Assembly (NCBI RefSeq): GCF_052324685.1
Contig: NW_027506873.1
Span: forward strand, 878,001 to 942,000
DNA from: Brachyhypopomus gauderio
Taxonomy: Eukaryota; Chordata; Actinopteri; Gymnotiformes; Hypopomidae
Length of the DNA stretch: 64,000 nucleotides
Direction of reading: 5' to 3'
Shown: positions 1 through 56,500 of the stretch, one piece after another
Numbering within the stretch: the stretch's first letter is position 1
Layout of the letters: every line of letters starts with the position of its first letter
Position numbers and translations under genes: made by a program
Notes under the pieces: model-generated
Told to the model about the DNA's origin: nothing
What the model saw: the letters and a program-made list of their open reading frames with translations, nothing else
The model's database searches: none

Positions 1-2009
1 ACATGCCAACTTCACAGGACGATTATAAAAATATTCTACAGTAAAAACTCTTCTTCTTCTGGATTTATACAGTCACTTATATGGTCAATCAAACCTGCTC
101 GTCAGATTTCTGAGATGATGTAAGCATCAGGAGATACAGCCATAGAAACGTACAATACATTCTATCGCGGCGACATAATGAAACTACCGCTTTATTTTTT
201 TAAGTTGGAACGGAAAGTGCGAATAAGACACTAGCGAATAAGGAACCAACTTCAACCTCGTTTAAAGTTTGGACCCTGTTCTACGCATTATCTGTGAGGT
301 ATGGTGCCAGGGCATTTGTGTTTATTTTTATTTTTATTTTTTTTACATCCATTTTGTAGTTTTCACGATGTCAAATGTCGGCGGCGAAAAGGAGGAGAGA
401 ATAAAGATACACCAGTCGAAGCTCCGAGCATTGTTTGTGTGATTAATCCAAGTGGTCCGCTACATTGCTGACTCTCCCTTTTAATCAATCAATCAAAGTT
501 TATTTGTATAGCACTTTTAACAACTCAAGTTGTCGCAAAGCAGCTTTACAGGATTTTAATGATACCAATCTGTAGCAGTGCTGTATTTCTTTGAAACCAG
601 TTCGCTTGACTCATAACTAGCACTCGTCGTCATTATGGCTTTTTCCCCTCTGTACAACCGCCACTCCGTAACCAATCAGTGAGCTCCAACTGCTGACCCC
701 TCCCACAGATCTTTTTAAAGAATGTGCCAAATTTTCCAAAGTACAGATTTGGCACGTTGCGTCACGTCACATGGTTAATATACTGCCACAATTTTACAAT
801 ACTGTCATCATACTGCCCAATCCCAGTAGGTGCTATTATTCGCTTAGCTCAACAAGTTTTTAAAATAAATATATATTAAAACAAAAATTTACTCCTCTGT
901 TCCTTTCAGATGCTCCTTTGAAATATTTAAATCCTGTTTCTACACATCCTGGGACACCAGAAGACACATTCTCAACCTTATCACCTTCCAGTGAGGCAGC
1001 ATTACACCATCATATCCCTCCACCTCACTACACCAATATTTATTTATTATTAATATTTAAAAGTTGTTCTCTGCACTACTTTATCTAAAATTGTTTTAAA
1101 ATATTTTTTGAGCAATATATTTATTGATATACTGTAATATTTATAATTCATTTGGTTTTTATTTGTTTCTTTAATACAGATTTTACTGTTTTACTGTTGT
1201 TTTCGTTCTACAAAAAAAAAATATCAAAAACATAAAGCTTTGCAGTGTCTGTGTGAGTGTAAAAACCCGATGATTGATGATGCAGCGGGCGCCAACCAAA
1301 ATCTTGCCTAGGGCACCACATTGGTCAGGGCCGGCTCTGCACGCGGAGGCATAATCAGTGGAACGCGACACGCTGGACCAGCATCAGCAAAAAAATTTAC
1401 AATAAAAAATCTCAGACAGAGAACATGATCCTCCAATCAAAATCGCTCCTCCACGGTCTGCTCAGCGGAGGCGTTTATACTTGGCGATCGATCGCGATAT
1501 AATACTTCATTTGTGTCCATTTACACCCCCCCCCCCCCCACTCAGCAATTTGTGTGTGTGTTCCAACACAGACAAAAGACTTTTATTATGCTGAGTTCTG
1601 ATTGGTTGAGTCTATGTAAAAAAGTGATTTGACTGTCTTTGACACTCTGGCTTGTGAACCTTGCTCGAGACCTAGATGTGGGTCGTGTGATTGCTACTGT
1701 TAGCAATAAAGTTCCTTTTTGGTTTTTCTAAATCTGCCGTTGTGTTCTTTCGTGATCTGCTTAAACAGTTTCAAAAATAGTGTGTGCAAATACACAACAC
1801 CATGTCATGGTGGCCGACCCCTGATGTAGAGGTATCTTCAACTAAGGATTTTCATAGTCGAGTCTGATTTGTCAGATTTTCCCTTTAGTCGACTCAAGGA
1901 TTTTTTCCTAGAGCACCTTAAACGGGATCCCGTTCTCATTCAGGACTTTTTTTCCACTTCAAAGGAAAAACCTAAAACACTCAGATGGTAAGTTGGTTTT
2001 ATTTGTAAC
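1..2009. other. Intergenic region with repeat debris, no gene seen
   Basis: I see no conserved coding sequence here. At about 482-560 there is a short copy of the dispersed fish repeat that starts with a TCAA tandem and runs into TTTATTTGTATAGCAC; fuller copies lie at about 15,118 and 61,803. At about 1,486-1,530 there is a fragment around GATCGCGATATAATACTT that recurs at about 41,401 and 41,848. The short open frames are AT-rich and resemble nothing known to me. A C-homopolymer lies at about 1,527-1,541. Confidence 0.6.
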
Positions 2010-2397
2010 GTCAGGAAGAGACAGAGAGGGATCCTTATGCAAAAGCACAGTGCTCTTTATTTGGCAGAGAGATACAACCAGAGAATGCGAGATGTTAATG
2101 CATAAACGGAGTTGATCTAATGCCGTTTGTTGAGAGTGGTCTATCCGGTCCGGGGTCGTAACGGGAAGGCAGAGTCCGTACGGTACCTGAGGGCTAGGCA
2201 GAAGACAGGGTCGAGGGAACAGGCAGAGGTCGGTACACAGGAGAAACAGCAGGGTATGATAACGCTCGGTATGCAACATGGTTGGCAGTACTTCGCGACG
2301 AGGTGTTGTGATGACAGTGTATATGAATGCCTGGAATGTGGGCGTGGTGATGAGGAACAGCTGAGTCCTTAATGGCTATCAGGTGACATTCCTGACA
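2010..2397 (-). repeat. 3' LTR of the gypsy element
   Basis: Directly after the polypurine tract the minus strand starts with TGTCAGGAATGTC. It ends near a sequence related to the inverted terminus (TTCCTGACG, around 2,010), and an AATAAA-type signal lies just beyond. The far border is approximate because no target duplication can be checked with the 5' end missing. Confidence 0.65.
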
Positions 2398-5055
2398 TTA
2401 CCCCCCCTCAACGGAGCGTCTCCTGACGCTCCACGACGCAAAGGCGGACGGCCGCGGCCCCGGGGGGCAGGAAAATGTGGATGGGCAGCGTGGAAGTCGG
2501 CGATGAGCGAGGGACAGAGTACGTCCCGCGTGGCCACCCAGGTCCTCTCCTCAGGACCGAAGCCCTCCCAATCGACGAGGTATTGGAGACCACCACGCCA
2601 ACGTCGGGACTCCAGCAGCTCCCTGACAATATACGCCGGCCGACTGTCGATGTCCAGCGGCTCCGGGGGACGGGCAGGAACAGATGAGACAGACATGGGG
2701 CTGTAATGGACAGGCTTAAGGAGAGACACATGAAAGGTGGGATTAATGCGATAATGAGGGGGCAATTGAAGTTTGTAGGTTACGGCGTTAACCCTCTTCA
2801 GCACTTTAAACGGTCTGAAGTAACGTTGACTGAGTTTACGGCAGGGCTGACGCAGGTTGAGATTCTTAGTGGAGAGCCATACTCGCTGACCAGGGTGATA
2901 GATCAGGGCCGGGAGACGACGGCGATCAGCATTCATGCGGCGGGTATGGAGGGCACGTCTCAACTGAACGTGAGCTTGTTCCCAGGTCCGAGCACTGCGC
3001 GTCAGCCACTCGTCTAGTGTAGGGATATCAGAGGGCGTCTTATCCCATGGGAAAAACGGGGGTTGATAGCCGTAGACGATTTGGAAAGGAGTGAGTTTGG
3101 TTGAGGAGTGTATTATGGAGTTGCGTGCATACTCAGCCCAGGGGAGATATTTATGCCTGTCTCTCTGAGATGCGCAGTACTGGCGTAGAAACCGACCCAG
3201 TTCTTGGTTGTACCGCTCCACCTCACCATTGGACTGGGGATGATATCCTGACGTCAGGCTGGCTGTCACTTCGAGCAGTTTGCAGAACTGGGTCCAGACG
3301 CGCAAGGTGAACTGAACTCCTCGATCGGACAGGATGTCTTCTGGGAGCCCATAGATCCGGAAGACGTAGTGGAAGATGTCCGATGCTGTTTCCATGGCTG
3401 TAGGTAACTTGGGGTGAGGAATCAGACGACACATTTTCGAAAACCTGTCCACTACAACAAAGATTACGGTATTGCCTCCTGAGACAGGCAGATCGGTAAC
3501 AAAGTCGACCGCTATGTGTGACCATGGCCGATGTGGGATAGGTAACGGGAGGAGTTTACCAGTGGGTAAGGTGCGTGGAGTACGCGACTGAGCGCATATT
3601 TCGCAGGCGAGTGCGTAGTCGCAATTGTCGTCCTCCCACGATGGCCACCAAAACTTCCGAGCGATGAGGTGGCGAGTGCGAGTGATGCCCGGGTGTCCAG
3701 TCCCTGCCGTGTCATGGGCGAGCTGGAGGATTCGCCCTCGCAACGACACCGGGACATATTGCTTACCCTCGGGACAGTCTTCGGGACTGGGGTCAGTGAG
3801 TAAAGCCGCATCCAAGTCGTCTTGCACATCCCATCTTATGAGGTCGAGGAAGCAGGAGTCCTTGAGAATATGCACCGGCGCCTCATCGCTCGGTGATCTG
3901 TCGTGGATCAGAGACAGAGCATCCGCCTTGGTATTCTTGGAACCGGGCCTGTAACACACTGAGAATTTAAACCGGGAGAAAAACGGAGCCCACCTTGCCT
4001 GACGCGGATTCAATCGTCTGGCGGACTTCACATACTCTAGGTTCTTATGGTCAGTATATACTATAAACGGATGTTCGGAGCCCTCCAGCCAATGACGTCA
4101 CTGTTCTAGCGCTAGTTTCATAGCCAGGAGTTCTCTATCTCCCACGTCGTAGTTTACTTCGGCCGGTCTCAACTTCTTTGAGAAGTAAGTGCAGGGAAAC
4201 AGTTTAGGGGGGTCTCCTTGTCGTTGGGATAGAACAGCGCCCACACCCACCTCTGATGCGTCAACCTCGACGATAAACTGGAGTTTAGGATCCGGGAGGT
4301 GCAATATGGGTGCACTGGTGAACGCAGTTTTCAACGTGTTGAACGCTTGATGCTCTTTGGAGGACCACACGAAGCACGTCTTCTTCCCCCCTTTCAGGAG
4401 GTCGGTGAGAGGGGCCGCTATCGAACCGAAGCTCCTAATGAAACGACGGCAGAAGTTCGCGAATCCCAGGAACCGTTGCAGTTCTTTCGTCGAACGAGGT
4501 ACCGGCCAGTTAGTCACTGCATCCACCTTATCAGCATCCATGTGCATTTGGCCCGGCGAGAGGGTACATCCTAGGAACGAGACGGTAGAAACGTGGAACT
4601 CGCACTTCTCAGCTTTCACGTACAGTTTATTCTCCCGGAGACGTTGCAGGACAGCGGAGACGTGTTGGACGTGTTCGGTGATTGAGGGAGAATAAATCAG
4701 GATGTCGTCAATGTAAACGAAGATGAAACGATCTATCATCTCACAGAAGATATCGTCCATAAAGGCTTGGAATACTGACGGACTGTTTGACAGCCCATAG
4801 GACATCACCAGGTATTCATAGTGACCTCGAGCAGTAACGAATGCAGTTTTCCACTCATCCCCCTCCCGTATGCGTATCAGATTGTAAGCGCTCCTCAGGT
4901 CCAGTTTAGTGAATACAGTCACTCCCATCAATCGCTCTTGCGAAGCAGAGATAAAAGGAAGGGGGTAAGCGAACTTCGAGGTGACAGCATTAAGCGCACG
5001 ATAATCAATACAGGGACGTAGTCCACCCCCCTTCTTCTCCACGGGTTTTAAAAAG
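2379..5055 (-). pseudogene. gypsy pol relic: RT - RNase H - integrase - chromodomain
   Basis: Read on the minus strand from about 5,055, the frame first gives a reverse transcriptase core with the YIDD-box catalytic motif. A single in-frame TGA at 4,098-4,100 follows. The same frame then reopens into the end of RNase H, an HHCC zinc-binding domain, an integrase core with its three acidic positions in the usual spacing, and a chromodomain near the C-terminus, ending at 2,379. The two open stretches (4,098-5,042 and 2,379-4,031) are in the same frame, so apart from the 5' truncation one nonsense codon is the only visible break. The chromodomain class usually directs integration to particular chromatin (family knowledge). 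The copy looks young but incapable of autonomous movement, because gag and protease are missing. Confidence 0.9.
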
Positions 5056-5714
5056 CAAACAACAACAAAAAATGTTTATAGTTGCCTACTTGCCGAGAAG
5101 AGAAGACGTGATCGAAACGACAAATGGCTGAACTTTTTTTTTTTTGCGTGTTCAGCTCCGCTCATTTGGATTGTACAACTGCAGGGTGTGATTTATTAAT
5201 GTGTAGTAAGGAAGAAGCCTAATGCGCACAGTTTTTCTCAGTCAATTTGGTTCATTTCTCACATCATGGTTTACATTGGCATCACAACTAGTGCATTTCT
5301 CAAAACAGTTAGTGCAAACAGCAAAACTCAATAAAATACCTGCAAAAGCAGATACTTCACTCAAAATTCTTAGTTTTTGCCCCAAAATCAAATATTTAGG
5401 TCAATCAATTTGTCAGTGCCATCAGAGTATCTAGTCTGTGTGCCATTGCCTATGAACAAGGCAGTCAAAATACTTAGTCATGTTGTCAGTGCACCTATAA
5501 GTCACAGTCAGTGTACCAGAGGTCACTAACAGGCGGTCCGCAGTCTGGATCCGGACCCGAACACAGTCCTGTCCGGACCCAATCTCATTCCTCATTAACT
5601 CTGCAAATTTCTATTTCCGTGGTCCGCAACCAATGGACCTCTGTCCGGATACGGACCCAAATGCCATCCCATCTGGACCCAGAATAAATTGTTAAAAATA
5701 TTTTTTAATTTTGA
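5056..5714. other. Non-coding stretch between gypsy and L1
   Basis: No gene is seen. The stretch at about 5,535-5,690 is rich in CGGACCC/GGTCCG words in both orientations and looks like part of an old repeat that I cannot name. It is followed by AT-rich DNA up to the L1 target-site duplication at 5,715. Confidence 0.5.
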
Positions 5715-6489
5715 CGGGAGAATTAATTTTTTTTTGTCATTAAAATTTTATTTTAACATAGTAAACATGGTAAACAAAAAATAAACAAAAGCTCAAGCAG
5801 TACATCATGTAGAAAAAGACAAAAATCATAGGAAGGTAGACCCGACGGATTGAGTATGGCTTATGAGGTCCCCATCAGAAGTTTACAGCATAAATGTACA
5901 GATGTCAAACATTCAGTGACAATACAATGAGGTACCCAGACATCGCTACCTTCTGATCTCGATCCCACCATCAACTAGAAGTGAGGTATTCCATGAAGTA
6001 ATCCCAGATTCCCAGTTCTGCAGGTCCTATACTCCTTATCCTAGTTAACATGACCTCATATGAGGTGCTTTCACTCATTAGGGTTTTCCATTCTTGGAGT
6101 GTTGGACATGTGGGTGATTTCCAGTGTCTTAATAGGACTCTAGCAGCTGTGGTTATCCCCACCATCAGAACTGAAAATACCTTTTTTGTCAATGTTGGGG
6201 CTTCTGTCTTATCTCCCAGAAGACACAAACAGGGGGATATTGGTAGGGCTATTCCCACCCATGTCTCCAAAGATTTCAACACATTACTCCAAAATAGTTT
6301 GACCATGGGGCATTCCCACATGAGATGCAGAAAGGTTCCCATTTCTTTTTTACATTTCCAGCATGAGCTATTGTTTGTTAAGCCTATCTTGAAGAGCCTA
6401 CAAGGGGTCCAATAGTACCTATGTAAAATTTTGTATTGTATAAATTTTCCTCTAGCCTCTTTGACGTAATTACCATTTTCGGGAATACC

Positions 6490-8880
6490 GGAGATTTTAA
6501 TATACATGTATGTTGTCCCGATAAGCCACTGGTAAAGGACTTTTTAACCCTCCTTGATTCTTTTAACCTGGTACAGGCCGTATCGGACCCTACACATGAG
6601 CATGGACACACACTGGACTTGGTTATTTCCTATGGGTTGTTTGTAACCAATGTGGAAACACATGATCCTGTTTTCTCAGATCATCTGCCTGTTTTATTTA
6701 ATACTAGTCTGATGTGCACTACAAGTAAAACATGTGCCCCTGCACATCGTTGCAGAATTATCAACTCTTCTACTGCCACCCAGTTTTCCGCTGCCTTTCA
6801 CCAGCTCTGTGGCTCAGCGGACTCCCCCTCCACCAATACAGAGGAGCTCAACTCCTGGTTCAGCTCTTCCTGTCGAACCATTTTGGACTCAGTGGCCCCA
6901 ATAAAAACCAGGCAGCCAAAGTCTAAACCAGAACCCTGGTTTAATGACCGAACTCGCACTATCAGAAGGAAATGTCGCCAAGCTGAACGCAGGTGGAGAA
7001 AGGATAGACTGCAGGTGTCTCATCAAATCCTAAAAGACTGCTGGCGTCATTATCAGAATTCAGTAAAACAAGAAAAAATTGATTATTTTACAAATATTAT
7101 TTCCTCCAACAGCCAAAATCCACATGTGTTATTCAACACCATTGACGCTGTGCTAAATACACCACACAATACATGTCTGGAAGTGTCACTTGATATGTGT
7201 AATACATTTCTCCATTTGTTTATTGATAAGGTGGTTAGTACTAGGGCCCTTATATCAGCGCCGGATGGTGACCCCTCTGTTTCAGTTCCATGCTCTGCCG
7301 TCCTTAATCAGTTTGAGCTTGTAACTCCTGGACTGTTAGATACGGTGGTTGGCCATAGTAAACCGTCAGGGTCCCCTCATGACCCTATTCCCCCACGTTT
7401 CTTTAAAGAAATCTTCATCAGCATAAGAGAACCTGTGCTTGCCATTATAAACAGCAGTCTGTCCTCAGGGGTGGTCCCTGCGACTTTTAAACACGCAGTA
7501 GTGCAGCCTCTGCTTAAAAAACCTGGCCTCGACCCAACTGTACTAGCAAATTATCGGCCCATATCCAAGCTGCCCTTTCTTTCTAAGGTACTAGAGAAAA
7601 TTGTATATAGACAGTTGAAACAGTTTTTAGATGAAAATAGCACCATGGAGGTCTTTCAGTCAGGTTTTAAAACTTTTCATAGCACAGAGTCTGCCTTATT
7701 AAGAGTTTTTAATGACATCCTTCTGGCATGTGATTCTGGTAACCATGCTGTTTTGGTCCTACTTGATCTAACAGCAGCATTTGATACTGTCGACCATAAC
7801 ATTTTATTAGCCCGTCTGCATGATTGGGCAGGTATTAGGGGCACTGCCCTAGAGTGGTTCAGGTCTTATCTGGAGGAGAGAACTTTCTCGGTGAACATGC
7901 ATAACTATGAATCTGCTGTGGCCCCACTCTCATGTGGCGTCCCACAAGGCTCAATCCTGGGCCCACTGCTATTTTCTCTTTACCTACTGCCTCTGGGTTC
8001 CATCCTCAGAAAACATGGGATTGCTTTCCATCTCTATGCTGACGATTGCCAAATCTACCTGCCTCTAAATCCAAATAATGTCTGGCCCATAAAAAATCTT
8101 TTAGCATGTCTTGGTGATATTAGAACCTGGTTGGCTTTAAATTTCCTAAATTTTAACGAAAAGAAGACCGAACTATTGATGTTTGGTCCCAGCGGCCCCT
8201 GTGATCCCACCTTGGTTGACCTAGGATCCTTGGAGACCTATTTTAAACCAGTTATCACTGACCTCGGGTTTAAATTGGACAGTGATTTTAAATTGGACAG
8301 CCAAGTAAATGCTGTGGTTAAGTCCAGTTTTTACCATTTGAGGCGTCTGGCGCCAGTGAAAACATTTCTCCCAAGGCACCTGCTGGAAACAGTGATCCAC
8401 GCTTTTATCACATCCCGTCTGGACTATTGCAACTCGCTGTACTTGGGTGTCAACAAAGCACTTCTCTCGCATCTGCAATTAGTCCAAAATGCTGCTGCCT
8501 GCTTTTTGACAGGAACCAAAAAGCGAGAACACATCACACCGGTCCTGGCGTCACTCCACTGGCTTCCCGTTTATTTTAGAGTCCATTTTAAAATTCTCTT
8601 GTTTGTTTTTAAAACTCTACACAATCTTGCACCAACTTATATATCTGAGCTTCTCCATCCTTACACACCTCACCGGTCTCTCAGATCAGCGGACCAGCTG
8701 CTACTAAGAGTTCCGAGATCGAAAAGGAAGCTCAGAGGGGATAGGGCCTTTTCTGTAGCCGCACCCAGACTATGGAACGACTTGCCTTTACAGGTTAGAG
8801 AGGCCCCTTCTCTTTCAGTTTTTAAAGTCCGGCTTAAAACCCACCTGTTCTCCTTGGCCTTCAACCCTAGCGAGACTTAG
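6490..8880 (+). CDS. L2-type LINE ORF2 protein (partial endonuclease plus complete reverse transcriptase), uninterrupted frame
   Basis: About 796 codons are open from the GDFNIHV motif of the APE endonuclease to the stop at 8,878-8,880. In order there are: the end of the endonuclease (SDHLPV motif), a basic linker, reverse transcriptase with LDLTAAFDTVDH, a GVPQGSILGPLLF box and the catalytic YADD box (around 8,036), and a C-terminal region ending RLKTHLFSLAF, typical of the L2/CR1 group. The frame extends upstream to 6,436 only by chance, through antisense L1 sequence. The missing N-terminal endonuclease means the copy cannot mobilise itself. The lack of stops over 2.4 kb indicates a young insertion. 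Confidence 0.87.
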   Translation, partial: GDFNIHVCCPDKPLVKDFLTLLDSFNLVQAVSDPTHEHGHTLDLVISYGLFVTNVETHDPVFSDHLPVLFNTSLMCTTSKTCAPAHRCRIINSSTATQFSAAFHQLCGSADSPSTNTEELNSWFSSSCRTILDSVAPIKTRQPKSKPEPWFNDRTRTIRRKCRQAERRWRKDRLQVSHQILKDCWRHYQNSVKQEKIDYFTNIISSNSQNPHVLFNTIDAVLNTPHNTCLEVSLDMCNTFLHLFIDKVVSTRALISAPDGDPSVSVPCSAVLNQFELVTPGLLDTVVGHSKPSGSPHDPIPPRFFKEIFISIREPVLAIINSSLSSGVVPATFKHAVVQPLLKKPGLDPTVLANYRPISKLPFLSKVLEKIVYRQLKQFLDENSTMEVFQSGFKTFHSTESALLRVFNDILLACDSGNHAVLVLLDLTAAFDTVDHNILLARLHDWAGIRGTALEWFRSYLEERTFSVNMHNYESAVAPLSCGVPQGSILGPLLFSLYLLPLGSILRKHGIAFHLYADDCQIYLPLNPNNVWPIKNLLACLGDIRTWLALNFLNFNEKKTELLMFGPSGPCDPTLVDLGSLETYFKPVITDLGFKLDSDFKLDSQVNAVVKSSFYHLRRLAPVKTFLPRHLLETVIHAFITSRLDYCNSLYLGVNKALLSHLQLVQNAAACFLTGTKKREHITPVLASLHWLPVYFRVHFKILLFVFKTLHNLAPTYISELLHPYTPHRSLRSADQLLLRVPRSKRKLRGDRAFSVAAPRLWNDLPLQVREAPSLSVFKVRLKTHLFSLAFNPSET

Positions 8881-9044
8881 TGGTTAATTTGATAACGTTC
8901 GGTTTGTCAGTTGTATTATTAATTTATCAATTTGCTGGTTTAGCCTTTTAATTTTGTCAAAATTATTTCTTTTTAATGTATAGCACTTTGTGTCGACTGT
9001 TGTTGTTTGAAAGTGCTCTATAAATAAAGATGATGATGATGATG
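6493..9044 (+). mobile_element. L2-type LINE inserted into the L1, 5'-truncated
   Basis: A plus-strand LINE interrupts ORF2 of the antisense L1. L1 sequence reads continuously up to about 6,490 and resumes after 9,045. The hexamer GATTTT lies at both borders (6,493-6,498 and 9,045-9,050), consistent with a short target duplication or microhomology. The 3' end is a (GAT)n tail at about 9,029-9,047. The 5' end falls inside the endonuclease domain, as is usual for truncated LINE copies. Confidence 0.88.
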
Positions 9045-12000
9045 ATTTTGTGCTATGACTTGATTCCAGGTATCTTTACTAATTTCACACTTAAGGTCCC
9101 TTTGCCAGATTATTCTCAAGTTGTCCCATTCGCTACTAATTGAATAAATTGAGTTTTTATAAAATGTTGATGCCTTATAGTTAAGGGGGTTATCTAAGTA
9201 CTCCACAATTGGATTGGTTAGTCTTTCTGATTGAAACTTTTTATTTATACAATGTCTAATCTGTAAATATTTCCAGAAGTCGTCTTTTTCTTGTAATTTG
9301 TACTGTTGCACAAGTTCAGTAAATGATTTAAATGTACCTTCTTTATACAGATCCTTCACAGTGTGTATACCCCTGTCTAACCATCTTTTCCAAAACACTT
9401 TCTGCTTCCTGATCTTCACCTCAGGATTAAACCAAAGTGATGCATACAGTTGCTTGTAATGGGAGATTTTGTGCATCTTATGAACCTTGGCCCACACGTC
9501 TTGAGAGTGCCTAATGACTGGGTTTATGTCCGTCCCTTTACTTTTCAAGCACTGGGACAGCACACAAATCGGCTGGAATGGTGCTGCCAGGTTTTTCTCA
9601 ATAGTAGCCCACGCTAAGCCAGACACTGTTCTTCTCCAATGGATAATTATCTTAGCCATCTCAAACGCCAAACTATAAAGCCTAACATCTGGGAGACCAA
9701 GCCCACCCTTTTCCCTGGGTGCACACATCTTGCTCCATTTAAATCTGGGTTTCCTCCCTGCCCAAAGAAATTCTCTGATTACATTTTCGTATTGTTTAAA
9801 GATATGATCAGGCTTACTTATTGGCAACATCATAGATATATAGTTAAATTGTGGTGCAATTACCATTTTGATTACATTTATCTTTCCCCATAGACTCAGG
9901 TTTAACTTTCCCCATTTACCTAGATTTGTTTTTATTTTTTGAAGGAGAGGCTCAAAGTTTAGTGCTGCCATCTCACCTAGCTCCGGGGTTAGTTTAATGC
10001 CCAGATAAGTCATACCTTTAGGGATCCATCTAAAATTATATTGTTTTATTATTTGCGGGTAGCAGTGCCTAGATATAGGCATCGCCTCTGACTTGGTCCA
10101 GTTAATTTGATAGCCAGATATCTTAGAATATGTTTTAATGGTGTCCATCAGTACAGGTAAAGAATTTTCAGGGTCACTAGTCAAGAAGAGGATATCATCA
10201 GCATAAAGCATCAACTTATGGTCGCTACCCCCACCTTCCACTCCTTTAATAGCTGGGTTTGCTCTTATGGCCACTGCCAGGGGTTCCAATGCAATTGTAA
10301 ACAATAAGGGCGACAAAGGGCATCCCTGTCGCGTTCCCCTAGAAAGATCAAAGAGAGGTGAGATAATACCGTTTGTCAAAACTGATGCTTTCGGGTTGTT
10401 ATATAATATTTTAATCCATTTTACAAAGCCCGAACCAAAACCAAATCTCAACAGGGCCGAGTGTAAAAAACCCCACTCGACTCTATCGAATGCTTTCTCT
10501 GCGTCAAGTGAGACCGCCACCACTGGTGCCACATCAGAGGCGTTTTGCCATATTAAGTGCACAAGTCTTCTCAGACTATCAGTAGAAGACCTACCCTTTA
10601 CGAACCCCACTTGGTCTGTATGTATAATGTGTGGTAGGATTGCTTCCAGTCTTAGGGCCAGAACCTTAGCCAGTATCTTACTGTCTACGTTGATGAGGCT
10701 GATTGGCCTGAAGCTAGCCGGGTCTGTATGATCCCTTCCCTTCTTGGGTATCAGAGAAATGAGTGCCTCATTGAGGGATGGAGGGAGTGAGCCTCTCTGA
10801 AAGGCCTAGTGGAAGACGTGTGTCAATATTGGAGTAATTATATCAATATATTGTTTGTAGTACTCCACGCGAAACCCATCTGTTCCTGGTGATTTCCCTG
10901 TATTCATAGTCAAGATGGCTTTCTTAACCTCTTCTTGGGTTATTTGTGCATCAAGAAGGGTCGACTGATCAGGAGATATCTTTGGAAGAATTATGTTTGA
11001 TAGAAAATCTTGGACTGATGACTCATCCACATCACCAAAAGATCTATACAGGTTTTCATAGAATTCCCGAAAGATCTCGTTAATACCCTTAGGTGATGTT
11101 ATAAGTGAACCTCCTGCTCTTATTGCTGGAATTGTGTAGGTAGAGCTTTGCTCTTTTAACTGTCTTGCTAGTAGCCTACCAGTCTTTTCCCCTGACTCAT
11201 AAAATTGCGTTTTAAGTCTAAACATAGCATATTCTGCTTTTTTATTGAAAATGTCATGTATTCGGAATTTGCATTTACAGATTTTTTAAAAATAGATTTT
11301 CAGAGTACTGTCTAGCCAAATCTTTTTCCATAATATTTAATTCTGCTTCCAATTTTTTAATACTATCATTGTGTTCTTTTTTTCTGTGTGAGGTCTTTGC
11401 AATCATTTTCCCCCTGATGTACGCTTTAGATGCCTCCCAGACCATTGCAATACTTTCTGTGCTACCCAAGTTGATTTCAAAAAATGCGGACAGGTCCTCT
11501 GCGAGTTCCTTAGAGTATACCTCATCCTGAAGCAGAGATGTGTTCATTCTCCATCTACCTCTTCGAAGTCTGTCTGAATGTATCCTTACACAAATCTCAA
11601 CAGGTGCGTGATCTGATATGGAGATAGCATTGATGGTACCATCCACGATGGCATTGGTTAAACTCTGGGAGATCAAAATGTAGTCAATTCTTGAGTGGGA
11701 CTTGTGGCAGTGCGAGTAAAATGTGTATTTCCTGTTTGTAGGATTGACTAATCGCCAGACATCTATCAGGCCATTATCCTCCATCAGCAGTTGAATGGCA
11801 GCCCTATCCCTCGGCGTTGAGATGCCAGAGTATTTGCTTTTATCTAATATCCCATCTAAAACTTGGTTAAAGTCTCCTGCTAAAATAATTTGACCTTGGG
11901 CGTTACCCAATATACTATTGAGGCCATGGAAGAAAGATGGGTCCTCCTTGTTAGGAGCATATATATTACATAGTGTTATTCTCTCCCCATTTATAGTGGT

Positions 12001-12266
12001 TTCGAGACAGACAATTCTACCATTGTTATCATTATACTCCTTTAACATAGAAAAGTTCAATCTCTTATGGACCAAAATAAGAACTCCGTTACGCCTGCTG
12101 GAAAAAGAGCTATAGTAAACATGTCCCACCCAGTCTTTTAAATTTTTTAGCTTCATCATCCACTAAATGTGTTTCTTGAATAAATACTATATCTGCTCCT
12201 TTTTCCTTTTCACAGGGTTCCCACAACCATTGATATTCCAGGAAACTACCTTAACATATGCGTTAT

Positions 12267-19340: not shown

Positions 19341-19768
19341 TTCAAATTTTTTTTTTGCCAGTGACCCCTCCGGGGCTCCGTAGAAGTGTGGCGTGAGAGC
19401 GTGTGAAAACGGTCAAATGCGTGTGTTGGCAACCCTGGTGCATGCATTCCAGAGACATACGGAGAATACATGCAGATCATTCAAAATATGTTTGTTGAAA
19501 TTTATGTACTTTATTCTTATATTTTTCAATAAAAATATTTTTATATTCATTGCAGTTAGTTTCTGTTAGAACAATTCCAAAGAACTGTTTGTAATGAAAA
19601 CACTGCTATGGTACTATAGTGGTGCTATGGTCAGTCTCGTGTCTCCCGAATACCATGGGTGGCAGAACACCGTTCTCTTACTCATGCAAAAGTGCAAATA
19701 CTCTGGTAAATAAATAAGAAATTAATGTTTAATGGCTGAGATGATTTATTTGGTGTGTTGTGGGTGTT

Positions 19769-21327
19769 GTTTGGGGAGGAGAGTGTCTTAGGAAGGTGGA
19801 AGGAGTATTTTGAGAAACTGTTGATTCAAGAGAATGAAAGGAAAAGAAGGTTAGAAGAGGTAGAGGTTGTGAATCAGGAAGTGCCCCAGGTGAGCAAGGA
19901 GGAAGTAAGGGCTGCAATTCAGAGAATGAAGTGTGGTAAGGCAGTTGGACCGGATGATATTCCAGTGGAGGCATGGAAATGTTTGGGAAAGACAGCAGTG
20001 GAGTTTTTGACTGGGTTATTTAACAGAATCTTGGAAGGTCAGAAAATACCTGAGGAGTGGAGACGAAGCATAATGGTGCCAATTTTCAAGAATAAGGGCG
20101 ATGTTCAGAGCTGTAGTAATTACAGGGGATTAAAGTTGATCAGTCACAGCCTGAAAATCTGGGAAAGAGTAGTGGAAGCTAGGCTTAGAGGAGAGGTAGA
20201 GATCTGTGAGCAACTGTATGGTTTCATGCCAGCTAAGTGCACCACAGATGCTATGTTTGCTTTGAGAGTGTTAATGGAGAAGTATAGGGAAGGACAGAAG
20301 GAGTTACATTGTGTGTTTGTTGACTTAGAGAAAGCTTATGATTACCGAGACAGGAGCTGTAGTATTGTATGAGGAAGTCAGGAGTAGCAGAAAAGTATGT
20401 GAGCGTGGTGCAGGATATGTATGAGAACAGTGTGACAGCAGTGAGATGTGCAGTAGGAATGACAGACGGGTTTAAAGTGGGGGTAGGACTACATCAGGGA
20501 TCAGCCCTGAGTCCCTTCATGTTCACAATTGTCATGGACAGACTGACGGACGAGGTTAGGCAGGAATCCCCTTGGACTATGATGTTTGCTGATGACATTG
20601 TGATCTGTAGTGAGAGTAAGGAGCAGGTGGAGGTAAGCTTGGAAAGATGGAGAGCAGGGGAATGAAAGTGAGCAGGAGTAAAACTGAGTACATGTGTGTG
20701 AATGAGAGGGCAGATGGTGGACAGGTCCAGTTACAAGGAGTTGATTTGGTGAAGGTTGACGAGTTTACCTATTTAGGGTCGAGTGTACAGAGTAATGGAG
20801 GAAGTGAAAGGGAGGTAAAGAAGAGAGTGCAGGCAGGGTGGGGTGGATGGCATAAAGTGTCTGGGGTGATCTGTGATAGAAGGGTGTCGGCTAGAATGAA
20901 AGGAAAGATCTATAGGACAGTAGTGAGACCTGCTATGTTGTATGGACTGGAGACAGTGGCACTGACAAAGAGACAGGTGAGGGAGATGGAGGTGTCTGAG
21001 ATGAAGATGTTGAGATTCTCATTTGGAGTGACAAGGAAGGATAGGATCAGAAATGAGTTTATTAGAGGATCAGCACATGTAGCATGTTTTGGAGATAAAG
21101 TTAGAGAAGCGAGATTGAGATTGTTTGGATGTGTACAGAGGAGGGAGGAGAGGTATATTGGTAGGAGGGTCTTGAGTATGGAACTTCCAGGCAAGAGGAG
21201 GAGAGGTAGACCTAAGAGGAGGTTTATGGATGCAGTGGTAGAGGATATGAGAGTGGCTGGTGTTTCAGTGGAGGACACTCAGGACAGGGCCAGATGGAGG
21301 AGTTTGATCTGCTGTGGCGACCCCTAA
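19769..21327 (+). pseudogene. RTE reverse transcriptase relic
   Basis: Three overlapping open frames (19,755-20,372; 20,369-20,665; 20,647-21,327) together give an RTE reverse transcriptase: KCGKAVGPDDIPVE, then VFVDLEKAYD, a GLHQGSALSPFMF box, the catalytic FADDIV box at about 20,586, and the KTEYMC motif. The frame breaks right after the EKAYD motif near 20,345 and again near 20,650. No endonuclease domain is present because of 5' truncation. The copy is inactive. Confidence 0.9.
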
Positions 21328-27199: not shown

Positions 27200-36336
<9,137 letters not shown>

Positions 36337-38128
36337 CTTCACAAGCCTTCTTTCCCCACGCCAGATACCTGCTTCAACTTAATTTACTTGATGGTAAATT
36401 ACCACACTGATATCTAAAGCCCGGCTTATCTTCGACAAAATCCGTCATAAGGAAACAACCCGCTCAAAACGGGTTTAGATAAATGGACATTTGTTCAAAA
36501 TTGGTCAGAGGAACAAAAATCGTTAGGCCTCGGCATCGGAGACCTTTCGCTTCAGTTGCAAAACGTCACCAAACCTGCGACAAAGCACCAAAGCAGCTGC
36601 ACCCTCTAGTGGTGGTACATATGTAAGACTTACGCCCTCTAGTGGTGGTACATATGTAAGACTTACGCCCTCTAGTGGTGGTACATATGTAAGACTTACG
36701 CCCTCTAGTGGTGGTACATATGTAAGACTTACGCCCTCTAGTGGTGGTATATAGATAAGCCTTACGCCCTCTAGTGGTGGTACATATGTAAGACTTACGC
36801 CCTCTAGTGGTGGTACATATGTAAGACTTACGCCCTCTAGTGGTGGTACATATGTAAGACTTGGTACATATGTACCACTCTAGTGGTGGTATATAGATAA
36901 GCCTTACGCCCTCTAGTGGTGATACATATGTAAGACTTACGCCCTTTAGTGGTGGTACATAGGTAAGACTTACGCCCTCTAGTGGTGGTACATAGGTAAG
37001 ACTTACGCCCTCTAGTGGTGGTACATAGGTAAGACTTACGCCCTCTAGTGGTGATACATATGTAAGACTTACGCCCTCTAGTGGTGGTACATATGTAAGA
37101 CTTACGCCCTCTAGTGGTGGTACATAGGTAAGACTTACGCCCTCTAGTGGTGGTACATATGTAAGACTTACGTCCTCTAGTGGTGGTACATATGTCACAC
37201 CAAATTATCCATACTAACTCGTACTAAATGAGCACATTCGTTCACCGTTCTCTTACATTAAAACAAAACTCCATTACCTCTATACTCCCCAACTGTACAC
37301 TCACCAGCTCTCATTTACAAACAAAGAAACAAAAAAAAAAATAGAAATACAGAAATAAAGTAATTGCGTAGACAGTTGTCTTATCAAGCATGAATAGAAC
37401 AGGTTAACCTCTGTTAAAAACTGATACTAGAATTAAACAAAGAAAACTAGCAACACACCACATTTATCTCCTCAGCTTGCAGTATCAAACTACAATAACA
37501 TCCAGCCATATGTCAAAATTTGGACAACAAACTATATATGGCCTGACATCCCTTCACAATCCCTCCCAAAACACACATAAGTATAACATATTTCTTAACG
37601 AATTACTATGAATATTATTACAGAACACCGGCCACATGTCTCACCTTCAAAGAAGCATAAAACACTGTCTTCTTCGAGGCGTAGCCACACATACAAACAA
37701 TTTGCATAACGCGAATACTGACACCAAGACTCGCAACCCCCTTACATTAACATACACCCCATTTATTCATCTGAAAAATTTCCCAGATATTTTCTTCTTT
37801 CGTGTTTTGAAAAAATATTTATTTTGTTTATAGTTTCTTAACTTCTTAACATTATGTATATATATTATGTATATATGTGCATTCATTTCAGTAAATCTAA
37901 CCGACTTTTCGGTTTGACTCTTCATTCGCGTGTCTGTATTTTGAACCTGCGCGCGACCCGTCGAAAGCGTTACGTGGCAGTACTAGTGTAGCTCGCGCAA
38001 CTCGAAATAGCCTCGACAGTCTTCGGCTTTGTGGCTTTGCTCGCTCTTCAGAGTCTTTAGAGTATTAGCTACTAACTCTTAATGAGTGTGGTATTACTAG
38101 CAATTAGTAAGTTTCACTCAAAACTACA
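36337..38128. promoter_or_regulatory. Intergenic region between divergent ptpn11 and tmed2 starts
   Basis: The start codons of ptpn11 (minus) and tmed2 (plus) are 1.8 kb apart, head to head. The ptpn11 side is CpG-containing around exon 1. The tmed2 side has a GC-rich segment at about 37,925-38,045 with GCGCGCGACC and CGCGCAACTCG words, probably its promoter. The 33-bp minisatellite lies between them. No TATA box stands out on either side. Transcription start sites are not determinable here. Confidence 0.7.
36597..37196. repeat. Minisatellite of 18 x 33-bp units carrying a CTCF-type core motif
   Basis: Each unit contains GCCCTCTAGTGG followed by TGGTACATATGTAAGACTTA. The reverse complement CCACTAGAGGGC fits the recalled CTCF core CCASYAGRKGGC at every position. 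I count 18 units, 14 with an exact core, all in the same orientation; the variants are the first, the ninth (a rearranged unit near 36,880), one with GCCCTTTAGTGG near 36,940, and the last. The 33-bp period is a multiple of three, which produces an artefactual 210-codon minus-strand frame. The array starts about 260 bp upstream of the ptpn11 start codon. Confidence 0.95.
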
Positions 38129-40073
<1,945 letters not shown>

Positions 40074-41159: not shown

Positions 41160-42960
41160 TTTTAGCAAAAGCTCCCTCTACAGGTAAAAAAAACCGAGGG
41201 TGACGTTTTGAACGCTAAAAGTTAATTTGGTTGTTTCTTGGACCTTAAAATACCCGGATTTGCAATACTTGTTCGGTAGGCAGAGTTGCCTGGTTCGCGG
41301 TTTTCACGCCAAATTCGGCTTGTTTGAAAATCCAGCCACGGGTAAAAATTCTGGGGTCGTGGTATGCGGTTACCGCGGGAGTTACAAGTCAACACTAAGA
41401 ATCGATCGCGATATAATACTTAATTTGTCTCCATTTTACACCGTCGACAGATTCAGGCATAGCCGCGGGAAGGTATTTTGCTTAGGGGGTGCTGAAAGGG
41501 GGGGGGGGGGTAGTGTTGCGCTTTACAACGTCACAGCAAATATGCAAATACAAGCCCTACACTCTGAGTTTGACAGCAAGTACAGCACAAGATTACATAT
41601 AGCCTACACCAGCTATTTAACAGAGAAATGCACTCTGCACAGCGGCAGGACAAACCACTGTCCTACCTCAGGGTTGCCAACTCTCACGCATTGAGCGTGA
41701 GACACACGCATTTGACTGTCTTCACATGCTCTCACGCCACACATCCGAGTTCTCACGCCGAAAAAAAATCTAGTTTATTTACCTCTGATCTACATCTATG
41801 ATGCAATGAGTTACTAGTTCGCTCTGGCGCCAACCACCGGCGGTCGATCACGATATATTACTTAACTTGTGTCCATTTTACGTTCACCCCCCATCGACAA
41901 TTTACACTCGCCACCGCCTCCAGGTTCAAATCTCACTCCAAGCGATCTTGAAAAGTTGGCAACCCTGCTACCTTATTTCTGCAGCTGCGCCCAGGTGTCT
42001 CATAAAACCCAAAACATAGCCTTTCTCTCAGGGTTGGCACTAATGAAAGTCTTCATTAAAACGTGAATGTCCAAACTCTCCAAAATGTGACTGTGCACAT
42101 GCATAAGTGCTAGATGTGTCAGTCTCTTTTGTGTCATTGTAGTGCGGTTTTCAGGCGGCACAGAGCAGAGAACGTTCTCTCAGATGAAGCGGCTGAGACA
42201 GGAAGGCTGAGGCAAAGCTTTATAAAGTTTTCAGCTTGTTGGAAAACACTTCGTGTTTGAGGATGGAGCTTAGATATGCTTGTTGCTATGTCCTGCACGC
42301 TGTTGCACTGTGAACCTTGAATGACATCACCAAGCATTTTTAATTGAAGTTCCAGGCGCACTCGGTCACCATTTAGCTGCTATGGATGATGAACCAGATT
42401 ATTATTATTATTAGTAGTAGTAGTATCAATATTTACTAAATGATTATTTATTTATTTTTTTATTCATTTTTATGTTTTGGTATCTATCATTTTTCTTTAG
42501 TTACAGACGTTTGAAGTTATACTCGTAGTGCCCACAGGGGGTGCTGCAGCACCCCCAGCACCCCTACTTCCCGCGGTTATGGATTCAGGCTTCTGAAAGG
42601 CGGGTTTTACACTGACTTTGTGCGGGATTTATTTGTAGGACCTGGTAACCCTGCCGGTAGGCGGCAACATTTACTAGTACTCGGAGCACAAACTGGGAGT
42701 AACGTACGTCTGACAGGGACACTACGTTATGACCATCTTTATTTATAATCAGCAAGGCAAGTCTGGCTTCATCGGTCAGCTTTGGTGTACAGCATTTTAA
42801 AGTATCATTAAATTAAAGTGTCATTACTACACATCAGAGTGCACAGAACATTTTTGAAAAATAAACCGGAAAACAAGAAGTCAGCCTGGGTTTCCAGTCG
42901 GACCGTATATTCTGTTGCACAATAAGTGTCCTGCATGGAAATTTGGTGAAAGAGAAATCA
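41160..42960. other. tmed2-ddx55 intergenic region, repeat debris
   Basis: Contains fragments that recur elsewhere in the window: GATCGCGATATAATACTT-type words at about 41,405 and a related GATCACGATATATTACTT at about 41,848, and a repeat beginning GGGTTGCCAACTCTCACGC at about 41,671. A hAT transposase relic lies at 42,134-42,361. A GGGTGCTGCAGCACCCCC palindrome lies at about 42,539-42,556. No host gene is seen. Confidence 0.6.
42134..42361 (-). pseudogene. hAT transposase C-terminal fragment
   Basis: The minus-strand frame includes LCLSLPVSAASSERTFSAL, the conserved C-terminal hAT dimerisation motif seen in fish hAT and ZMYM-type transposase-derived proteins. Only about 70 codons remain and no other domain is nearby, so it is a relic. 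Confidence 0.8.
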
Positions 42961-50500: not shown

Positions 50501-53500
50501 GAGAGGCCAAGGCATGGGAGTTTAAATAATAGAGAGTTGCTCCAGCAAGGCTGGGCCCAGTGTAGGGAGGTAACGCTGCTGCATATCAAAGTTAGGCCTC
50601 AGGGTTCATGTGAACATCTGGGTTCATTTAAACACCCCCAGAACACTCCTCTGAAACATCTGAGATTGGTTAGAATGGTCACAGCACACAGTAAAAAAGT
50701 GATTAATCCTACGTGTATCGCAACCTTCTGCAATATTAGTGTCGCAAAGGCTAATATTGCGATAATGATTAACAAATGATATATTGTGCGCCCTTAGTGG
50801 GGTGAGTAATATTAGCAAGGCTAACAGGATGACAGGTGGTTAGCTATATGGGGAGAGGGGAGAGGCTAGGGCGCTGAGACAGGTGGCTGGGTGTAATTCC
50901 AAACCTAATTTAAACACGTAGGCTATGAGGCTAAATGGCTACAGCGCCATCATTTTGGAAAGTGACCCTATCTGAGCTTGTTCTGGTTGATGAAATGTGT
51001 TTGTACTTTTGTATGATGATCTCTTGGCAGTGCGATCATGACTACTGATGATTGTGACCCTGCCTGTCTTAACCTCACATCTGATTGCAGTGCAGCACTC
51101 TTGAATTGCTGGATTTGTGTCCTTGTAGGTGGATGTGCTCGGCTTTGTGTGTCTCTCGTACATCTACAGTAAATATCCTGTTTTCACACTGACTGACTGA
51201 AATAAGCTGTCTGGGGTTTAATTAATTAATTTATTTAAGTCACGAGTTGAAGTTTCATCTGTATTGCTCATAAACAGACGTGCCAATTCCAGGTTCAGAA
51301 AGTAAAAGTCTTCACCAGGATTTTGCGCAGGCTTCCTGCATTGTGTTAATTCCACTAATTTTACCTGGATTGCACTAATTAGAAAATCTGGCGAGCTTGA
51401 GCAAAATCCTGGTGAGGACTTTTACTTTCTGAACCTGGAATTGACACCTCTGGTTATACGCATAGGTGAACTCCACTGTCTAGTGTCAAGGCTGATACAT
51501 ATGCTAAAAACGGTGCAGCTGTACTGATTATGTCTAAGAAATTGATTTATTATACATTTTATTAATGTAATATCGTTTCCTGTATTGTAAAAGCTTGGTG
51601 TTTACATGTCTGAAATGGTCCTTCTGTTCAGAAGCTCGGGTGCTCCATTTTATGAAGCTGACTGCATACACGCCGCAGAGAGGTGTAGTAGCTGCCCATG
51701 GCTCAGACAGCAGAGAGGTGTAGTAGCTGCCCATTAGCTCAGACAGCGGAGAGGTGTAGTAGCTGCCCATTAGCTCAGACAGCGGAGAGGTGTAGTAGCT
51801 GCCCATGGCTCACAGCGGAGAGGTGTAGTAGCTGCCCATGGCTCAGACAGCAGAGAGGTGTAGTAGCTGCCCATGGCTCACAGCGGAGAGGTGTAGTAGC
51901 TGCCCATGGCTCACAGCGGAGAGGTGTAGTAGCTGCCCATGGCTCAGACAGCAGAGAGGTGTAGTAGCTGCCCATGGCTCAGACAGCGGAGAGGTGTAGT
52001 AGCTGCCCATGGCTCAGACAGCAGAGAGGTGTAGTAGCTGCCCATGGCTCAGACAGCAGAGAGGTGTAGTAGCTGCCCATGGCTCAGACAGCAGAGAGGT
52101 GTAGTAGCTAGGGTTGCAGCGGTAACCGGTTTCACGGTATACCACGGTATTAAAATGCACGGTTATCATACCGTGTGCGTTTGCTTATTACCGGTAAAAA
52201 GCAAGCCAGCGGAGAAACTGACGCAACTCCGCTCCGGTTCAGCTACTCAGCACGCAGCGGTGAGAATGGCAGAAAGTGCATCAGATTTAATAAATTTTTT
52301 TAACAAAAAAAGCTAAACTAAAATCAGCGGCGAAAATGACGCAATCGCGGTGGCTCCGCCCGTGCGCGAGGGTCTCGCGCGCTGTCGATTCGCGAGGTCG
52401 TGCACCTCTCGAATTTTGTAACTTCGCGCGCGCCGCGCCTCAGCGCAATGAACAAAGTCATGTTTGCAGGGTTCATACACCTTTATAAGGTGGAATTAAA
52501 GCATTTGTACGTAACTTTAAAGGTCCGTTTCAATATTTCCCAGCACCTTAAACTTAATTAAGTTAAATATTTATACATATACTCGAAATAATTCGCTTTT
52601 TCATCACATTATTTAATGGATGTTTATTTTCAAAACGCCCAATCTTAACGTATTCACGTTCTCTCATGTTTCGTCCTGGAATTACAAGAGGCTCGTATTT
52701 GTTAAGTAATACAAAAGAACTGTGCGGAGTCGCGCGCTACGGTCACTAGTGAAAGTATAAACCTAGCTTTTTATGGTCCTTGCTTTCACTGGATGTGAAA
52801 GACGCCATTAATTTACATGCGTTCATTTTCAAATTCTAACGTGCCTGTTTTTCACATGTTAAAACCAGACTCGGTGTGAAAGCCTTAAAATAGAAATCTC
52901 TATTGTGAGGGTCATGTCAGAAATAAATCCTCTCTTTCTGCAGTATCCGGTTATATTCTAACTTGGCAGTACAACGAACGTTTACAACAGTTGTTGATCA
53001 GACACTGACCCAGGCTGAGTTTATCAGATATTAGATCATTTAAACTTAAATAATTGTATTGAAATCCATGATTTAGGTTTCTCTAATTTTGCAGTATTTA
53101 TATAAACCTGTGTACAGCTTATTTTTTTTTAAAGGAGACATTTTGTATACAATAGTTCCAGTTTCTACAATAAATAGTTAATTGAACAAAAAAAACTTGT
53201 TGTAATTTCTTTAAGGGTCCGTGTATCTTTTAATAATAAACAAACTAACTGTGATACCGTGATAACCGTGATACCGCGGTATTTTCTGAGACGGTTATCA
53301 TACCGTGAAAATCTCATACCGTTGCAACCCTAGTAGTAGCTGCCCATGGCTCAGACAGCAGAGAGGTGTAGTAGCTGCCCATGGCTCAGACAGCAGAGAG
53401 GTGTAGTAGCTGCCCATGGCTCAGACAGCAGAGAGGTGTAGTAGCTGCCCATGGCTCAGACAGCAGAGAGGTGTAGTAGCTGCCCATTAGCTTAGACAGC

Positions 53501-56500
53501 GGAGCAGCCTCGTTTGTCAGATGTCTTTGTCTGGTCGTTAATTTTGGCAGCCACCTGTCATGAGTCACAGTCTTGTGCATTCTTTCAGTGCAAGCCTTGG
53601 GGGTGTGTGTGTGTAGGTGAGTGGAGGTGTGTGTGTGTGTGTGTGTGTGTGTAGGTGAGTGGAGATGTGTGTGTGGGGAGGGTGGGTGTATGGAGGGAGG
53701 AGGGTAGCAGTTTTGCTCTCGTGTCAAACCAGGAGTGAATATCTCCAGAGCTTTGATATGCCACGTTACAGATCAGCATGCAGCTGCTTTGCAGCACTTT
53801 GCTCACTCCCTCCTTATTCACTTGCTCACTCCCTCCTTATTCACTTGCTCACTCCCTCCTTATTCACTTGCTCACTCCCTCCTTATTCACTTGCTCACTC
53901 CCTCCTTATTCACTTTGCTCACTCCCTCCTTATTCACTTGCTCACTCCCTCCTTATTCACTTGCTCACTCTCCTTCATGCTCTTGACTATCGGCCTCGTA
54001 CCCTACATGCCACGGACGTTGATTGTACTCTCGGATGCTTGATCTAACGTCAGTGGTCTGTGTTTTGCCCTCTGGTCATGCTGGCTGAGGTGCTGGTCCT
54101 CATTCCTGTTGGTGAAGAAGCTCCAGGCCACACTACAGTGAAGCAGCTAGTCTCCACGTCCTCATGCATGACTCTGACACGTGTTAGAAATTGTGTCACC
54201 AACTTTGGGAGGTATTTCAGACTCCATCTAATTGGAAATGAATTGTTTAGATTGGGTTTATCTGATATGGAACTATGTTGGCTAAGTTTATTTTCTGTAA
54301 TTACTGACTGTAATTGCTTTCGGAGGTCAATTTAGTAAATGCGAATCAAAAGCTAAAAGATGATGCTGTTGAGCAGTTTCACAGACTGATGAATTGTGCG
54401 GCTTTAGCATTTCCTTGAATCAGATCATCAGATGAATCCTAGTGCTTTAATTAGATGAGTCTAGACAGCCTGTACAAAACCAGAACAAAGACATGCTGTT
54501 GTAAACGGCAATGTAGCTGTGATAAAGCTGTCATAATATAGATGTCTTAATGCAATGGTTCCCAAAGTGGGGGGCGCGCCCCCTAGGTGGGGCGCGGAGC
54601 TATTGCAGGGGGGGGCGCAGAGCTTGGAAGTAAAACGTGCACGTGTCAATATTAGGGATGCACCGATTCCGATATTAATATCTGAAAACAAATTCTAGAT
54701 CGGGTATCGGTGACAATGTGACCGATCCATAAAAACAGATCTATTCAGTCTAATTCTATGCTCGTAACGCTTTTCTGAGTTAGTTCAACATTAAATATCC
54801 ACTCTGTCCCGGATAGAAGTGAACTTGGACAGTTAACAGGCGAGTGAAACACAAAGCACACAGAGGAGAGGTGAATCACAGACTCGTACTCGCGCTGGTG
54901 GTATTACACTTAGTCCGTTTATTTGCTGGTTGACCAAAATAAACCTGGGATCCAGCACTACATGACTGTTCATACATGAACTGGTGAGTTGTCCAAAGCT
55001 CATTGAATGCGTTACTTACAAAAATAAATTAAAGAGCAGTGGTCTGACTCGGTCTACGGCAGAAAGCTAAAACAACAATATTCCATACGCGCGCTCAATT
55101 CGCTCCCTTAAAGAGACAGTACACATATTTCTGGCCGTTACATGCTTTGTGCTCTGCGTGATGTCTGCGCTAGCAAACTAGCCACATAGGTATTGCTGTT
55201 TCTCTTATTTCATCTCCTTATTTATTTAAAATTATATTTAGAATTCTTGAACCATTTAAAAGGTTTCTTACAGTTTATTTTTTTCATGTTTGACCAAAGT
55301 TGTGAACCTATTGTTTTTGTAAGTTTCAGGTTCTTTGGTATAATTTATTTTACATTCAATGTTATATTCATAGTTGCAGTGACTGAACAAATGCAAGTTG
55401 TGTTGTTTTTACATGTTTTATGTGTGTTTAAGTGTGCTATACTGGTGCAGAGTTTTCAATAAACTTGTAATTCAGTATGTCTGTGTTTTTTAAAAAATGC
55501 TTTAAGTCGATTCAGCACAGTTTTACTCTTATCAGATCGGTATCGGCAGAGGCGGTCTTTGCATAGAGGCGTGGCTAGGCAACTGCCTTGGGCCCCTCCC
55601 ACTGCAGCCCACTGTAGGGGCTCCTGATTAGCTGACTTTTTTCTCGCATATTAATGTTGATGGGCCCCCTACCTAATTTCGCCTTGAGCCCCCAAATTGC
55701 TAAGTCCGCCACTGGGTATCGGATCAGTATCGGCCGATACGAAGCCTCAGATATCTGAATCGGTATCGGAAGTGAAAACCGTGAATCGGTGCATCCCTAG
55801 TCAATATGGGGGGGAGGCGCAAAAATATTCTCATCTACTAAAGGGGGGCACGGCAGAAAAAGTTTGGGAACCACTGTCTTAATGTTTGAATGTCATCATC
55901 TGAATTACTTGATCTTTTTACCTTCATCTCACAGATTACCTTGACAATGGCAATAACAAGATGGCAATCCAGCAGGCAGAGAAACTTCTGAAGAAGCACA
56001 AGGACCTTCACTGTGCTAAGGTAGGTAGCGTCGCCCGGCCCTGATGTTAGCAGCTCCTCTCTGCTAAGGTGGAGGAGAAGTGACATCACATTGTTCATGA
56101 CATCATTCAGAACAGCTCAGAAGCCAATATTCCAGATTCCAATTGTCACTTTCCCTTCTTAACTTGATTGTAATAAAAATACCCTACGATATCCCTAATG
56201 AGCTTGGAACGACTTCTTCTGGTGCGTAGGTCCTCAAGGCCATTGGTCTGCAGCGCACAGGCAAGCAGGACGAAGCCTTCACTCTTGCCCAAGAGGTGGC
56301 TGGCCTTGAACCCACGGACGACAACTCCTTGCAGGCTCTCACCATCCTCTACCGGGAGATGCACCGACGTGAGTCCCCCTGAACACCTCTGACCCACGCT
56401 ACACCCACGATTTAATGTGCTCAAGTGCATGCATCCCGCCATCGCAGTGCACGTGGTCGTAGCGAACATCTAATCGGGAGTAGGTGAGGTTGGTCGGGAA

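Follow-up and report, generated by a model that had tools for sequence, protein, structure and literature searches.

Here we describe a minisatellite of the fish Brachyhypopomus gauderio in which nearly every unit carries a motif resembling the binding site of CTCF. It is located between ptpn11 and tmed2, two genes in divergent orientation with start codons 1.8 kb apart. It was studied within a window of 64,000 nucleotides (NW_027506873.1, positions 878,001-942,000, forward strand), and the positions given below are those of the window. The explanation that we favor, with about even confidence, is that tandem duplication multiplied a single CTCF-type site next to the promoter of ptpn11 and that the resulting array acts as one clustered site.

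The array and its CTCF-type motifs

Tandem Repeats Finder delimits the array at positions 36602-37195 with a period of 33 bp, 17.7 copies and 91% matches. By direct count it holds 18 cores, either CTCTAGTGG or CTTTAGTGG, every one on the + strand and in a single orientation. The distance from core to core is 33 bp in 16 of the 17 intervals and 43 bp in the remaining one, where the eighth unit is lengthened by a 10-bp insertion. The sequence GCCCTCTAGTGG is present exactly in 14 of the 18 units, and no further copy exists on either strand of the window. On the ptpn11 side, the array begins 266 bp upstream of the start codon; on the other side, 934 bp separate its end from the ATG of tmed2. A sequence-only reading of the same DNA had described an 18-unit minisatellite with an exact core in 14 units, about 260 bp from the ptpn11 start codon and with tmed2 on the opposite side; our counts agree on each of these points. 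Its additional statement that all units share one orientation and a 33-bp spacing needs correction only for the single 43-bp interval. The array contains 16 CpGs in 594 bp, approximately one per unit and situated at the motif edge, and it occupies a dip in CpG content (observed/expected about 0.5) that is flanked by CpG-richer regions at both gene starts.

Both strands of the window were scored with matrix MA0139.1 for CTCF, entered by hand. All of the 15 best scores belong to units of the array (17.49-17.75 bits, with p about 6e-7 at each position given the base composition of the window), the best score elsewhere being 13.9 bits at 41169. While 15 of the 18 units reach at least 17.49 bits, the other three score 13.3, 9.7 and 0.9 bits. 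A regular unit attains 17.5 of a maximum of 28.3 bits over the full length of the matrix and 20.6 of 22.5 bits over its 13-position core, such that the core motif for zinc fingers 3-7 (ZF3-7) is present in the units; the fit to the CTCF core consensus proposed from sequence inspection is thereby supported. The unit score was rarely reproduced by chance, in 1 of 20,000 trials with mononucleotide shuffling and in 5 of 20,000 with dinucleotide shuffling. At the level of sequence, the match to CTCF is thus well supported. Seven further consensus units, which cover the other eight arrays of the window, score at most 7.9 bits. Single diverged copies of a 43-bp minisatellite in the ptpn11 gene region (27749-28147) hold weak CTCF-like sites of 11.5 and 7.2 bits, in the opposite orientation to the array.

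For calibration, 13 published CTCF sites were scored with the same matrix. For the seven sites described as strong, of high affinity or of high occupancy, the scores were 26.6, 22.1, 20.2, 18.4, 16.4, 14.3 and 11.1 bits; three weak sites reached 11.6, 9.5 and 7.1 bits, and three unbound sites 8.7, 7.1 and 6.6 bits. The regular array unit, at 17.5 bits, falls within the range of the published strong sites and above the weak and unbound ones. Moreover, two units have 14 consecutive bases in common with the published site bGm5, which judging from its name and its probe in PMC3950710 appears to be the mouse beta-globin HS5 site. Given the score in the strong range, together with this 14-bp identity and a 16-bp identity of the ptpn11-side edge unit to another published site (Table 1), the units are likely to bind CTCF in vitro.

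Variants shared by more than one inner unit affect five of the 33 columns, none of them inside the 12-column core, and the changes that do fall in the core are each limited to one unit: the ninth (by the 10-bp insertion), a unit with a C-to-T change, and the edge on the tmed2 side. Both ends of the array consist of one 23-bp segment, CCCTCTAGTGGTGGTACATATGT, of which the copy on the tmed2 side differs at a single base, and the inner copies are linked by a 10-bp filler, AAGACTTACG, that has no further occurrence in the window. The ptpn11-side edge unit keeps its 17.55 bits by using its unique flank. The simplest history that the edges of this one allele suggest would start from a 23-bp segment that was present once, a short way upstream of ptpn11, and contained one CTCF-type site. 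This founder would have been duplicated together with the 10-bp filler, and the array would then have grown in 33-bp steps.

A proposed clustered site beside the ptpn11 promoter

The DNase I footprint of CTCF is given as 40 bp at the APP promoter (quoted in PMC3368268), and the 33-bp spacing lies below it, in line with what had been anticipated. Neighboring units would consequently exclude each other in part. CTCF might occupy only some of the units, no more than approximately one in two if a 40-bp footprint applies, and twice the number of units need therefore not provide twice the dose. The array would then amount to one clustered, high-occupancy CTCF site. Every motif points along ptpn11. 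CTCF and cohesin obey a rule of convergent orientation, and because of this rule and the direction of the motifs, the array would be expected to halt cohesin that approaches from the side of ptpn11, and could serve as a promoter-proximal loop anchor or as a weak one-sided boundary. Changes in array length would shift occupancy in a saturating fashion and not switch insulation on or off. Zebrafish CTCF is reported to have around 30,000 binding sites, with motifs preferentially convergent at boundaries (PMC8438036).

Several points weigh against a clustered site that is bound and functional. The zebrafish promoters tested in the same study were reported to be without a clear bias in CTCF-motif orientation (PMC8438036), which makes the argument from orientation thin. 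The upstream motif recognized by ZF9-11 is absent from the units: at gaps of 2-8 bp, the best agreement with four published forms is 3-5 of 10 matches, and depending on the form, 48-99% of random sites match at least as well. Likewise, the downstream motif GAGCCA, reported to be associated with CTCF peak strength (PMC9004084), is absent, with a best agreement of 3 of 6. Within the motif itself, flank positions 17-18 score negative, although the full-length score is high. The matrix was entered by hand, and the high-affinity site '47' scores below one of the weak published sites, making it an imperfect guide to binding. The probability that variants avoid the core is 0.086 for 12 columns and 0.065 for 13 columns, figures that assume independence although four of the five changes co-occur. 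Finally, the evidence for the founder model comes from the two edges of a single allele.

Alternative explanations

It is also possible, and we regard this as a serious minority view, that the array is a passive minisatellite whose duplicated unit contained a CTCF-like 12-mer by accident and that it has no role in the regulation of ptpn11 or tmed2. Among random 33-bp units of the window's dinucleotide composition, 71 of 1,000,000 reach the unit score. Nine arrays with a period of at least 20 and at least 4 copies are found in the 64 kb, the CTCF-core array included; extrapolated from a window that is perhaps atypical, this density corresponds to approximately 100,000-140,000 such arrays in 0.7-1 Gb of genome, about 7-10 of which would be CTCF-like by chance. 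Since some 7 in 100,000 random units score alike, a minisatellite-rich genome is expected to contain a few, and the presence of the core in nearly every unit provides no separate evidence because duplication copies it. The excess over chance applies inside the window; at the scale of the genome, an array of this kind would be expected by chance. An exact scan of viral and prokaryote contig collections for two CCCTCTAGTGG cores 8-38 bp apart returned three stretches in viral contigs and one in a prokaryote contig. The viral stretches (L003 1-90, L001 2585-2712 and L002 2246-2304) are short arrays of 2.8, 2.5 and 2.7 copies, respectively, with units that are otherwise different, that of L003 also having a 33-bp period; in the repeat scan, the prokaryote match lies outside any array. 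In view of their other unit sequences, all of these matches are taken as unrelated to the fish array, but three viral arrays with the same core indicate that it can enter repeats by accident. The missing upstream motif and the lack of significant constraint on the core fit such an accident as well. Contrary to it, the consensus units of the other arrays of the window stay far lower in score, and the units score in the strong-binding range, so that CTCF binding is quite possible even if the array arose by accident.

The sequence-only reading had proposed a length-variable insulator between ptpn11 and tmed2; in such a model, the CTCF dose would follow copy number and cross-talk between the promoters would be blocked. 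Our analysis does not support this proposal, which we consider unlikely and rank below both a promoter-side clustered site and an accident. Although the start codons on either side of the array are divergent, both genes are likely broadly expressed, leaving little to insulate, and the orientation along ptpn11 equally suits a promoter-side anchor. With a spacing below the footprint, extra units may add little, and chance predicts several such arrays per genome. In addition, enhancer blocking by the IL3 insulator was reported, from a reporter assay, to require the upstream ZF9-11 motif (PMC12885311), to which the array matches no better than random sites. The literature on multiple sites points in both directions: insulation predicted with AkitaV2 grows with the number of strong clustered CTCF sites, in line with experiments cited there, whereas arrays of non-boundary CTCF sites are reported to be without insulation (PMC11828424). 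Repeat-borne CTCF sites are described as separating the expression of neighboring tandem genes in mouse, rat and dog, and the same mammalian comparison reports no significant effect of the M2 motif on transcriptional insulation, because of which the absence of the ZF9-11 motif does not exclude insulation (PMC3368268).

A further possibility is that the ptpn11 promoter already had a functional CTCF site, that this site was amplified into a polymorphic array, and that the length of the array determines CTCF and cohesin occupancy, and thereby ptpn11 output. We consider this improbable; if it were true, the array would represent a dose series of a single CTCF site that arose naturally at a vertebrate promoter, with a spacing below the footprint.

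A role unrelated to CTCF, as a palindromic spacer, through single-strand structure or through start codons in a 5' untranslated region (UTR), appears very improbable. Near-palindromes in the spacer, GTACATATGTA and GTAAGACTTAC, are directly visible, and short ATG frames are found in regular units on both strands. However, when six units were folded as single-stranded DNA, their stability did not exceed that of shuffled sequences (z 0.87), 155 of 200 of which folded equally well or better, and a role through such structure was rejected. The - strand is open through the array for 212 codons from stop to stop, because 33 is a multiple of 3, but none of the ATGs within the array starts a frame of more than 11 codons, and a coding or UTR role was likewise rejected. 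On the + strand, many units contain an ATG directly followed by TAA (11 listed), and the - strand holds a four-codon ATG frame, MYHH (16 listed); if the array lay within the 5' UTR of either gene, these repeated ATGs would therefore add many upstream starts. A scan of the region for bacterial-type promoters and terminators is meaningless for an animal genome, and its result was not used.

Relation to known CTCF-bearing repeats

Tandem repeats bound by CTCF are already known in human, and the B. gauderio array is a sequence-level candidate of that type in a fish. In human, 171 distinct repeats, mostly simple repeats, are reported to be bound by CTCF and BORIS in chromatin immunoprecipitation (ChIP; PMC5007689). 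These variable number tandem repeats (VNTRs) resemble the fish array in their short units and short CTCF core, which form a 'staggered' cluster site, and two features of this class, namely head-to-tail short units (18 x 33 bp) and a CTCF core in the unit, are present in the array. Unlike the ChIP-bound human repeats, the fish array is known from its sequence and from one locus beside a promoter. The promoter and intron VNTRs of the serotonin transporter gene SLC6A4 likewise have short units, and their regulation by CTCF was tested (PMC2848977); the likeness considered here is one of design. In herpes simplex virus 1 (HSV-1), the CTRL1/RE1 and CTRL2 elements combine short tandem CTCF-type sites with reported enhancer-blocking activity, but these are viral repeats of the CCCTC/CTCCC type, in contrast to the CCACTAGAGGG core of the fish array (PMC2789235).

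DXZ4 and other CTCF macrosatellites are also CTCF-bound tandem arrays (PMC3491370, PMC3218863). Their units, however, are of approximately 3 kb and their sites far apart, compared to a 33-bp unit that is well short of the kilobase scale. Mammalian CTCF sites carried by short interspersed elements (SINEs) have been multiplied by repeats as well, some with boundary effects, yet they spread by retrotransposition, while tandem duplication would account for the fish array (PMC3368268). A two-part site of 33/34 bp (M1+M2) was considered as the origin of the 33-bp unit; the length agrees with the description in PMC3368268, but the upstream motif is absent, and the agreement in length is therefore probably a coincidence. 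The SPANX-N minisatellite was rejected as a relative, since CTCF is reported to bind the promoter there and not the minisatellite (PMC1831492). Among the matches listed for open-licence literature, covering titles and abstract openings, there was no report of a CTCF-core tandem array in fish.

If bound, the array would make this promoter a natural experiment in the titration of near-identical CTCF sites. A comparison of alleles that differ in length would show whether crowded, co-oriented CTCF sites add, saturate or compete; published modelling of insulation used well-spaced sites, 180 bp apart (PMC11828424). Binding would also mean that tandem duplication, besides retrotransposition, multiplies CTCF sites in fish. 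If unbound, the array would be a useful negative example, in which a near-perfect core is insufficient.

Neighboring genes and other features of the window

The coordinates of the array, of its individual sites and of the flanking first exons are collected in Table 1. The identity of ptpn11 is supported by 58 amino acids of an SH2 exon that match SHP-2/PTPN11 in PDB (best E 3e-43), and further by an open reading frame at 30.7-31.4 kb with an SH2 match in Pfam. On the other side, a 60-amino-acid exon matches EMP24_GP25L in Pfam (E 6e-6), and its translation reads as the tmed2 subtype of this family. The gene content, together with the retroelement-like open frames elsewhere in the window, points to a ray-finned fish, in agreement with the source. 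The region 37650-38550 around the tmed2 start is CpG-rich (observed/expected up to 1.66 in 300-bp windows) and is likely a promoter region.

Table 1. Positions of the array, its sites and the adjoining coding exons in the window.
Feature	Position	Strand	Basis or remark
33-bp minisatellite, 18 units	36602..37195	-	17 x 33 + 23 + 10-bp insertion = 594 bp; all units read the CTCF-type motif 5'->3' on the - strand
ptpn11-side edge unit CCACCACTAGAGGGTGCAG, 17.55 bits	36597..36615	-	16 bp identical to HPV11_7, a published site bound strongly in an electrophoretic mobility shift assay
First of 14 regular CTCF-type sites	36630..36648	-	CCACCACTAGAGGGCGTAA, 17.49 bits, 12 units; TCACCACTAGAGGGCGTAA, 17.75 bits, 2 units
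Palindrome GGTACATATGTACC, product of the 10-bp insertion in the eighth unit	36863..36876	.	direct count and unit comparison
Ninth unit, damaged core beside the insertion, 0.9 bits	36871..36889	-	matrix score, direct count
Eleventh unit, one core change, down to 9.7 bits	36937..36955	-	matrix score
tmed2-side edge unit, core change, 13.3 bits	37168..37186	-	matrix score
ptpn11 exon 1, coding part ATGACATCTCGGAG, then GT splice donor	36323..36336	-	first base of ATG = 36336
tmed2 exon 1, coding part	38129..38308	+	ATG at 38129; EMP24_GP25L match

Elsewhere in the window, two arrays at 51675-52109 and 53333-53504, separated by about 1.2 kb, have a 35-bp unit in common, though in different register. 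Several long open frames at 2000-12200 and 19700-21300 resemble, by eye, reverse transcriptases or other proteins of retroelements.
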